DNA of 35,920 nt, from positions 1 through 35,920 of the forward strand of contig JAFVSR010000036.1 in the NCBI GenBank assembly GCA_017503645.1, read 5' to 3'. The notes beneath the pieces are model-generated. The model searched no databases, was not told the origin of the DNA, and saw only the letters and a list, made by a program, of their open reading frames with translations. Below are positions 29,877 through 33,214 of this stretch, in pieces (within the stretch, counting starts at the first letter, position 1; each line of letters starts with the position of its first letter). The DNA comes from Bacteroidaceae bacterium (GTDB lineage Bacteria; Bacteroidota; Bacteroidia; Bacteroidales; Bacteroidaceae). The position numbers and the translations under genes are program-made.

Positions 29877-29922
29877 CGTTTAACGCGAATGTATATTATC
29901 GTTTGTAATAAAAATATTGAAA

Positions 29923-31353
29923 ATGAAATACTGCCTGTCAATAATATTTGTTGCGCTGCTCACGTTCAATGCGGCAACGGCGCAGAACAAGAACACAGCC
30001 CGCAAGCTATTTCTTGCAGGCGAATATGCCGAGGCAAAGCCTATGTTTGAAAAACTTTTGCAGCGAAACCCGCGCAACGGCGAGCTCAACTACTGGTATG
30101 CCGTCTGCTGTTACGAAACAAAAGATACTGTGGATGTGAAACCTATGCTCGAATATGCTGCATCGCGCAAAATCTCTAATGCCTACCGCTATCTCGGCGA
30201 TTTGTGTGCCGACAGTGCCCGCTATGTTTCTGCCGCAGAGCATTACGAGGATTTCCTTGCCGTGTGCAAAGACGACTCGCTGTTGTCGCTTTTCAAAACC
30301 AAACTGAGCGATGTGAACCGCCTGAGCCGTATGGTGAACACCACCGAGCGTGTGTGCGTGATAGACAGCTTTGTTGTGGACAAGGAGAAATTCCTCTCGG
30401 TCTATAAGATGGGGCGCGATGTGGGGCTTCTTACTACCGTTGCCCAATTCTTTGACGAGGACGACGAGGATGGCGGCTACCTGGCCGAAACTGAGCGTGG
30501 TACCGACATATACTATGCAATGAAGAACGAGGGCGACAGCCTTCTCAAACTATATCACAGCAGCAAGGTCGATGACGAGTGGGGCAGGCCGCTGCGTCTT
30601 GCGGGGATTGACACGCAGGGCAACGACAACTACCCCTTTATGCTGGCCGACGGCCTCACGCTCTATTTTGCAAGTGACGGCGAGGGTTCCATAGGTGGCT
30701 ATGATATTTTCATTACCCGATACGACAGCGAGGACTCGCGCTTCCTGCGCCCCGATAACATAGGTATGCCGTTCAATTCGCTTGCCAACGACTATATGCT
30801 TGCGATAAACGAGGTGGCCAACCTCGGATGGTTTGCCAGCGACCGCTATCAGCCCGATGGCAAGGTGTGTGTATATGTGTTCGTGCCTAATGCTACAGCC
30901 AGCAAGTACGATGCAGAGAATATGCCCTATGAGCAGTTGATAGCCAGGGCACAGTTGCGTGGTATTGCTGCCACACAGGTAGATGATGCTCTTGTGCGTG
31001 AAGCCCGCCGCCAGCAGACTATACTGTTTTATGAACAGCCCGACGAACGCAGCAACGGCGATTTCCTCTTTGTAATAGACAACGCCACCGATTATACATC
31101 GCTGGCCAACTTCAAGAGCGCCAAGGCGCGCGAGATGTTTGTAAAGTGGCAGAAGGATTGCGACCGTCACAAAAAGAACGAGGCGGCATTGCTGCAGAAA
31201 CGCGATGACTATGCTGTGGCTGCTCCGGCGGCAAGGAACCGTATGGCTGCGGAAATACTTCGCCTGGAACGTCAGGTGGAGCAGGATGCACAGTCGCTTG
31301 AATCGGTTGAGTACGAGATAAGAAGAATAGAATTACAAACACTACACAGATAA
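29923..31353 (+). CDS. exported TPR and PD40 beta-propeller-like protein
   Basis: A 476-residue exported protein with a signal peptide (residues 1-20, cleavage after ATA). Three TPR-type helix pairs follow (about 23-125: ARKLFLAGEYAEAKPMFEKLLQRNP, ELNYWYAVCCYET, AYRYLGDLCADSARYVSAAEHYEDFL). A PD40-like part is seen at about 215-310, with FMLADGLTLYFASDGEGSIGGYDIF and GWFASDRYQPDG. The last 70 residues are a charged coiled coil. TPR plus PD40 recalls PorE of the type IX secretion system, but the OmpA-like domain of PorE is absent, so I do not assign it. ATG 29923 rather than TTG 29917. It is followed by nfeD after 3 bp. Confidence 0.82.
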   Translation: MKYCLSIIFVALLTFNAATAQNKNTARKLFLAGEYAEAKPMFEKLLQRNPRNGELNYWYAVCCYETKDTVDVKPMLEYAASRKISNAYRYLGDLCADSARYVSAAEHYEDFLAVCKDDSLLSLFKTKLSDVNRLSRMVNTTERVCVIDSFVVDKEKFLSVYKMGRDVGLLTTVAQFFDEDDEDGGYLAETERGTDIYYAMKNEGDSLLKLYHSSKVDDEWGRPLRLAGIDTQGNDNYPFMLADGLTLYFASDGEGSIGGYDIFITRYDSEDSRFLRPDNIGMPFNSLANDYMLAINEVANLGWFASDRYQPDGKVCVYVFVPNATASKYDAENMPYEQLIARAQLRGIAATQVDDALVREARRQQTILFYEQPDERSNGDFLFVIDNATDYTSLANFKSAKAREMFVKWQKDCDRHKKNEAALLQKRDDYAVAAPAARNRMAAEILRLERQVEQDAQSLESVEYEIRRIELQTLHR

Positions 31354-31356
31354 AGA

Positions 31357-31833
31357 ATGATTATGGATATAGTTATTATTGCAATTTTGGTGCTTGTGGG
31401 CGTGTTGCTGCTTGCCCTTGAGGTTGCTCTCATTCCCGGTATAGGTGTCACGGGTGTTCTTGGCGCCCTCTCAATGATAGGCGCTGTTGCCTATGCCTTT
31501 AATTTTATGCCGTTGGCGGGATGGCTCACTCTGGCGATAGTTTCACTGGCCATTGTACTGCTTATCCTGTGGGCCGTTTATGGCAAGTCCATCGACAATG
31601 TGGCACTTAAAAAGAATATCGATTCCACGGTGCAGAACCCCGATACCACCACGCTTGCCGTGGGCGACGAGGGTGTGACCGTCACACGTCTTGCTCTTGT
31701 GGGCGAGGCCGATTTTGGCGGGCGTCTTGTCGAGGTTACATCGGCATCGGGCCTTTTGGAGGAGGGTACCAAGGTGTGTGTGACACGCATTGCAGGCGGC
31801 ACCATATTTGTTAAAAGCAAAACTGCGGTTTAA
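31357..31833 (+). CDS. NfeD family membrane protein, short form
   Basis: A 158-residue protein with three closely spaced hydrophobic segments (about 3-24, 27-48, 52-74), then an OB-fold domain (about 95-155: [54 protein letters not shown]). It lacks the N-terminal ClpP-like protease domain of long NfeD. Short NfeD proteins are regularly encoded beside flotillins and are thought to work with them in membrane microdomains (established knowledge); here FloA follows 16 bp later. A second ATG at 31363 is also possible as start. Confidence 0.9.
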
Positions 31834-31849
31834 TGACATTTGTAATGAA

Positions 31850-33214
31850 ATGGGTATAAACAGGGTAAAACATATATTGTCGCTTCTGCTCTTCTGCACA
31901 ATAGCAGTTTCGGCATCTGCTCAAAAAAGTGTGGTGATTACGGGCACTGTCGTCAGCGATGCCGAGGGGCCGCTTATTATGGCAAGCATCACCGAGCGCG
32001 ACGATAAGAATCGCATTGTCACTGCCGAGGAAACTTATCACAACGGCAATTTTTCTATGGTGGTGAAAAACACCGATAACCGCCTGCAGGTATCGTATAT
32101 TGGTCACAAAACGCAGACACTGCCCATCGGCTCCCGCAGGGTATTCAATATCGAGATGACCAAGAGTGCGGCACAGCAGGAAGATGCCCTAACAAACCAT
32201 AAAAAAACAACACAGGAAGAACAAATAACAAATTCTAATTTTTTATATTCTATGGACAGTACATTTTTAATTGCATTAGTAGCCATTGCGGTAGTGGTGG
32301 TGCTATCGGTGTTTTTTCATTATGTACCTTTTGTGCTGTGGCTTTCGGCCAAGGTGTCGGGTGTTCACATCTCATTGGTGCAGTTGTTCCTTATGCGCAT
32401 TCGTAACGTGCCGCCATATACCATTGTGCAGGCAATGATAGAGGCCCACAAGGCAGGCTTGGAGGATATTACCCGCGATGCGTTGGAGGCTCACTACCTT
32501 GCCGGTGGTCACGTGGAGAAGGTTGTTCACGCGCTTGTGTCGGCAGCCAAGGCCAATATCGAACTGACGTTCCAGATGGCAACAGCCATCGACCTTGCAG
32601 GCCGCGATGTGTTCGAGGCAGTGCAGATGTCGGTGAACCCCAAGGTTATCGACACTCCCCACGTTACAGCCGTAGCCAAGGATGGTATCCAGCTCATAGC
32701 CATTGCCCGTGTAACCGTGCGTGCCAACATCAAACGCCTTGTGGGTGGTGCCGGCGAGGACACCGTGCTTGCCCGTGTGGGCGAGGGTATAGTATCGTCT
32801 ATCGGTTCGTCAGAGAACCACAAAGCGGTGCTCGAGAACCCCGATTCAATATCTAAACTTGTGCTCAAGAAAGGCCTTGATGCCGGTACTGCATTTGAGA
32901 TTCTCTCAATCGACATTGCCGATATCGACATAGGTAAGAATATTGGTGCCGCATTGCAGATAGACCAGGCCAATGCCGACAAGAACATAGCCCAGGCGAA
33001 AGCCGAGGAGCGCCGCGCAATGGCTGTTGCTCTGGAGCAGGAGATGAAGGCCCGTGCACAGGAGGCCCGTGCACACGTTATCGAGGCCGAGGCCGAGGTT
33101 CCCAAGGCTATGGCAGAGGCTTTCCGCACTGGCAACCTGGGTATAATGGATTACTATCGTATGAAGAATATCCAGGCCGACACTGCTATGCGCGACAATA
33201 TCGCCAAAGAGTGA
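31850..33214 (+). CDS. floA: flotillin FloA fused to an exported regulatory-like domain
   Basis: One open frame of 454 residues. Residues 135-454 are a complete FloA: a membrane segment ([24 protein letters not shown]), the [21 protein letters not shown] segment, the SPFH/band-7 domain, then the EA-rich helix ending in [24 protein letters not shown]. FloA scaffolds membrane microdomains. The first 134 residues are foreign to FloA: a signal peptide (1-24, cleavage after SASA), a carboxypeptidase-regulatory-like beta domain (27-104: [35 protein letters not shown]) and an AT-rich-coded linker (105-134). ATG 32252 would give FloA alone. Loss or gain of one A in the A7 at 32201-32207 would put a stop just before it, so the fusion may be natural, recent, or a sequence error. 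Confidence 0.8.

Follow-up and report, generated by a model that had tools for sequence, protein, structure and literature searches.

The window, a stretch of 35,920 nucleotides from a Bacteroidaceae genome (denoted G000), carries one uninterrupted frame in which a probably exported domain is joined to a complete FloA; we judge this to be a real, inherited and clade-specific fusion, and not a sequencing slip. The fused gene (31850..33214, +) encodes 454 amino acids with no internal stop and comprises a signal peptide, a SusC-type N-terminal extension (NTE), a linker and FloA, as indicated by the open reading frame, by profile searches and by the presence of the same fusion in relatives. A FloA with a putatively exported SusC NTE as its head is a new form of FloA at the level of a clade, and its function is predicted.

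The preliminary description of this DNA had proposed that a signal peptide, a carboxypeptidase-regulatory-like domain, a linker and a complete FloA are joined in one open frame. This is borne out by the 454-residue ORF, by matches to PF12127, PRK13665 and CarbopepD_reg_2, and by the signal peptide as read by eye. The putative signal peptide (residues 1-24, 31850..31921, +) has a basic start, a hydrophobic core and an A-S-A (AXA) site preceding Gln25, and aligns with the signal peptide of a SusC encoded in the same genome. Downstream of it are the NTE (CarbopepD_reg_2) head (residues 25-104, 31922..32161, +), a linker of 30 residues (residues 105-134, 32162..32251, +) and FloA, whose own Met is residue 135 (ATG 32252). 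PF12127 (FloA) matches residues 143-453 (32276..33208, +) over model positions 3-312 of 314, with E 3.4e-160 and 532.7 bits against a cut-off of 34, and PRK13665 (FloA) matches residues 138-453, above its cut-off. By sequence, the FloA part has no solved relative at E 0.01. An N-terminal membrane segment precedes the SPFH domain (hydrophobic core KD 3.05), and hydropathy places the FloA membrane helix at residues 137-158 (32258..32323, +).

The head matches CarbopepD_reg_2 (PF13715) over residues 30-105, scoring 29.9 bits in a scan of the whole protein against a Pfam cut-off of 32.2, and 33.6 bits when the 86-residue head was scanned alone. Model positions 3-76 of TIGR04056 (SusC/RagA) match residues 30-108 with E 8.7e-11, far under the cut-off of the full-length model; TIGR04056, the SusC/RagA transporter family, is a more telling label for the head than CarbopepD_reg_2. 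Among solved structures, those closest to the head in sequence are SusC chains, 9hfj (85 residues, E 1.6e-5) and the full-length 8aa4 (E 8.4e-4), and the NTE structure 6ytc scores only E 0.074.

The gene nfeD is the usual partner of floA. Here it lies directly upstream of the fusion (31357..31833, +; PF01957, 31.1 bits against a cut-off of 29.1), with 16 bases between its stop (31831-31833) and the ATG of the fused gene. The fusion resembles FloA flotillins (PF12127, PRK13665) that go with NfeD in having a complete FloA sequence that adjoins nfeD, but it differs from them in having an exported N-terminal domain, which none of the 23 unfused full-length floA genes of the genus possesses. An ORF located directly upstream of nfeD (29917-31353) matches TPR and PD40 and in part resembles PorE and CHU_0125-type proteins.

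We searched for the fusion in 61 genomes, 37 of them belonging to the same genus. A full-length floA match was found in 27 of the 37 genus genomes, four fused and 23 unfused; in G011, G015, G017 and G026 the match was partial, and G008, G012, G023, G027, G029 and G034 had no floA among the matches listed. The whole fusion is present in frame in the window genome G000 and in G013 (99%), G014 (92%) and G031 (86%). The start codon of the head is kept in all four (ATG in G000, G013 and G031, GTG in G014), and none of them has an in-frame stop between head and FloA. When a related NTE domain was used as query in 44 genus genomes, only these four had it linked to a frame as long as the FloA fusion. 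Furthermore, among the 80 loci listed by a scan of named genomes, a capped list that may miss records close to the window's genome, one match extends into the head, JAFUOP010000006.1, from a Bacteroidaceae MAG of roe deer rectum, which we take as G014.

The linker contains a tract of seven A (32201..32207, +), and the preliminary description had raised an error or a strain-level frameshift in this tract as the alternative to a real fusion. The tract sits in AT-rich DNA with stops in both other frames, and the positions given for the first off-frame stops, TAA 32226-32228 and TAA 32236-32238, are correct. It had also suggested aligning the locus from relatives and looking for the stop; three further genomes keep the frame open and have none. 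Moreover, in the DNA alignment the most distant fusion, that of G031, lacks the seven-A run and carries a 9-base gap in its linker region, and its frame is still open. Because three relatives keep the frame, one of them without the tract, we rejected the artefact: it is not believable that four assemblies would share such an error, and the likelihood that this reading is right is negligible. The claim of a real fusion therefore stands and that of an error or strain-level frameshift falls.

To compare selection on the parts of the fused gene, dN/dS was calculated by Nei-Gojobori counts, taking residues 25-104 as the head. Over the six pairs, head dN/dS was 0.04 (G000-G013), 0.13-0.15 (G014 against G000 or G013) and 0.15-0.24 in comparisons with G031, the last ratios being rough, as head synonymous distances there exceed 1. 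FloA beyond the helix gave 0.00-0.01 and the linker 0.42-1.20 (six pairs). The synonymous excess in the head was significant in the four genome pairs tested (Fisher p 6e-4, 1.5e-10, 4e-7 and 1.5e-9), and for the linker the Fisher test was non-significant in every pair tested, with no detectable protein constraint. These data demonstrate that the head is under purifying selection. As no in-frame linker stop occurs in the four, any head that is translated must belong to the fusion product. We considered the open linker itself as proof of selection and rejected it as weak, since simulated random substitution introduced no stop into the linker in 26% (60 changes) to 82% (5 changes) of runs.

The linker is likely the former leader of floA. 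The 90 bases upstream of ATG 32252 are 67% AT in the window genome, and with their counterparts 67-69% AT in all four, against 49-53% for the head. Its composition and the lack of detectable protein constraint support the earlier suggestion that the linker resembles an old leader. Its likeness to an actual leader is weak: when the linker end was compared with the nfeD-floA leader of the nearest unfused relative, G036, 22, 30, 24 and 138 of 500 shuffles scored as high for the four fusions, and we rejected homology between the two as weak by this measure.

A former leader may have retained the initiation region of native FloA (32216..32254, +). ATG 32252 has the weakest local structure and the highest upstream AT of the gene's 22 ATGs, and the region has almost no predicted structure, falling among the 2-3% least structured windows of the gene in all four fusions. 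In addition, similarity over the last 36 linker bases exceeds that at fourfold sites in three of four computed pairs (P 0.031, 0.0065 and 0.0095). These observations favor the possibility that two products are made, the full fusion and a native FloA from ATG 32252, giving mixed oligomers in which some subunits only carry the head. On the other side, similarity is not raised between G014 and G031 (P 0.37), and the sequence context of the start is altered. T is found at -3, -6 and -12 in all four fusions, compared with A in 17, 11 and 17 of 23 unfused floA starts, and at -13 in three of the four, compared with A in 20 of 23; since the fusions make up a single lineage, the contrast counts as one comparison. 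According to PMC6847099, which concerns Flavobacterium johnsoniae, adenines at -3, -6, -12 and -13 favor initiation in that species. An unstructured, AT-rich internal start with T at key positions suggests that native FloA could be made as a second product, perhaps more weakly than before the fusion. We hold the two-product reading, which is compatible with the explanation we prefer, to be slightly short of an even chance.

Another reading would make the fusion a tolerated by-product, with most FloA initiated at the internal ATG and an idle head, which would agree with a linker that shows no detectable constraint and with the retained unstructured start. The synonymous excess in the head in all four pairs tested and the head start codon being kept in all four genomes speak against it, and we consider it unlikely.

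By its sequence, the head is the NTE of a SusC-type transporter. It is about 60% identical to the window genome's own SusC (59% over residues 3-109 against the N-terminus of G000:C77), a 1103-residue ORF located between an ORF of 1136 residues and a SusD-like ORF of 588 residues, the names being given by eye. SusC-type transporters with such an NTE were found among the listed matches for 34 of the 37 genus genomes. The fusion shares with SusC/RagA TonB-dependent transporters (PF13715; 9hfj, 8aa4 and, weakly, 6ytc) a signal peptide and an NTE at this level of identity, but it has neither plug nor barrel; FloA stands after the NTE instead. The likeness between head and SusC stops at about the TonB box, which reads DEVVI in SusC and EDAL, EDTL, EDVV or no such string in the fusions; by eye, the string does not seem to be kept. 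In G030 two equal-score copies of an NTE-bearing transporter start lie on one contig in opposite orientation (G030:C60:50008-50328 and 92431-92751).

We built an NTE tree of 39 rows (33 transporter rows, four heads and two others), including only this transporter type and leaving out G014, G020 and G028, with no such transporter in the listed rows, as well as G027 and the second G030 copy. The four heads cluster together (FastTree 0.945; IQ-TREE 90/91) and sit beside the transporter NTEs of G000, G013, G031 and the unfused G036 (0.86; 88/86). In the floA DNA tree of 27 rows, from which the four genomes with partial floA and the six with none listed were left out, the four fused genomes form one clade (0.96) with G036 as its sister (0.90). 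Both trees fit, with moderate support, one capture after the split from G036. We propose that the four species, all of one Bacteroidaceae genus, share an ancestor in which the start of a SusC-type transporter gene, comprising the signal peptide and the NTE to about the TonB box, took up a position between nfeD and floA, so that the former leader of floA turned into the linker.

Given the signal peptide at the N-terminus, the simplest predicted layout has the head in the periplasm and a single membrane crossing; the topology of the preliminary description, with a periplasmic head, one crossing and a cytoplasmic scaffold, is plausible. The structure model of the fusion (mean pLDDT 52.7; residues 1-132 below 50; two of 27 alignment rows carry the head) was too poor in the head to check its fold. 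At low confidence it contains a single unbroken helix at residues 129-158, with block means of 61-82 over 131-160. The helix core lacks glycine, as it does also in four unfused floA genes, and its hydropathy of 3.05-3.17 in the fusions is among the highest of the 27 floA genes, one unfused gene having 3.11. We take these features of the core as no more than a hint on the topology.

Two other fates of the head bear on this layout. First, it could be cleaved after export and act as a free periplasmic NTE, for which the loose and poorly conserved linker would be suited. We know of no cleavage site between head and FloA, and a stop codon, which would give the same outcome, is absent in the four; we regard this as improbable. 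Second, the head could be cytoplasmic and FloA inserted as a hairpin. This draws on B. subtilis FloT, whose N-terminus was found cytoplasmic and read as a hairpin, as reported in PMC4312047. Published views differ, as FloA itself is modelled in PMC11222466 with a single transmembrane segment at the N-terminus and its PHB domain in the cytoplasm. The signal-peptide-like start kept in the four (by eye) and the one unbroken helix of the low-confidence model speak against a hairpin in the fusion, and we give this arrangement little weight. A natural, conserved exported domain on FloA would argue that the flotillin helix can cross the membrane, and thus bears on the side on which the N-terminus lies.

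The predicted mechanism of the fusion follows from the periplasmic layout. The signal peptide would export the product and the NTE would stay in the periplasm; the FloA helix would cross the inner membrane and the SPFH scaffold would remain cytoplasmic. FloA assemblies would then keep close the periplasmic partner that the NTE normally meets on the outer-membrane importer. Expression, export, topology, oligomer and NTE partner are all predicted here. The SusC NTE has an Ig-like fold, and a strain devoid of it did not grow on levan despite protein levels of 25-50% of wild type, according to PMC7782687. In its passages on the NTE, that paper gives the function as not established and suggests a role in choosing among TonB proteins; the domain is also implicated in TonB contact in the account of PMC12204202. 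Given the deletion phenotype and the suggested link to TonB, we propose that the NTE, once fused, allows FloA assemblies to retain its usual partner at the inner membrane. The TonB complex is the leading candidate for this partner, although naming it is a guess with a rather low chance of being right. Tentatively, the SusC NTE might be a tag that docks onto a machine of the inner membrane or periplasm, such as TonB-ExbB-ExbD; placed on FloA, the tag would make flotillin assemblies gather that machine and link microdomains to outer-membrane nutrient import. TonB_C domains were present in 9 of 9 genus genomes searched, fused or not, which is neutral for the idea of a TonB partner. The sensor or adhesion head of the preliminary description was not upheld, the head being of the SusC NTE type, for which PMC7782687 gives no established function.

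NTE-type domains outside transporters were found in two more genomes of the genus. In G001 (G001:C42:18751-18996, minus) and G007 (G007:C6, L125:2317-2742, minus), such a domain forms the C-terminus of a short membrane-type protein, in frames of 301 and 152 residues, respectively; no C-terminal NTE on a short membrane-type protein was found in the other genomes of the 44 genus genomes searched. Both proteins have hydrophobic segments and are encoded near acetate kinase and an LpxH-like ORF (neighbors named by eye). They resemble the fusion in combining an NTE-type domain and membrane segments without a barrel, and differ from it in the C-terminal position of the NTE, the absence of FloA and their place beside acetate kinase and the LpxH-like gene. 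SusC NTEs of this type share as much as 68% identity with the G001 domain, which groups weakly with G001's own transporter (0.62), a branch not present in IQ-TREE; the G007 domain diverges too far for placement in the tree. A PF13715 scan of seven genomes detected, above the cut-off in frames shorter than 500 residues, the four fusions, the G001 and G007 proteins and one more in G001 (G001:C44:85755-85988), which lies in a frame of 379 residues, too short for SusC. These cases suggest that an inner-membrane NTE may have been favored more than once. That the NTE occurs on FloA and also on further membrane-type proteins in this genus suggests that its partner is reachable from the inner membrane, and makes these proteins a natural bait for it. 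PorE of the T9SS, as described in PMC12204202, likewise re-uses a carboxypeptidase-like Ig-fold domain outside transporters; it differs from the fusion in being an outer-membrane lipoprotein with other domains and no FloA.

Beyond the four genomes, we recognized no similar fusion among the matches listed for 301 genomes of the family (111 with a match), among part of the matches for 393 genomes of the order (287 with a match), where longer frames may be hidden, or among the matches for 178 genomes of the phylum (44 with a match). A literature search, which covered open-licence papers and few subscription ones, likewise gave no description of such a fusion. Among frames outside the range of 340-360 residues, nine other long FloA frames (G235, G156, G075, G082, G096, G103, G845, G782 and G587) were read and considered as parallel fusions. 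All nine are without a signal peptide or a head recognizable by eye and were rejected; from their sequences they look like chance open upstream frames. In G232, a genome of another genus, the floA match falls in two pieces in different frames (G232:C65:8407-9301).
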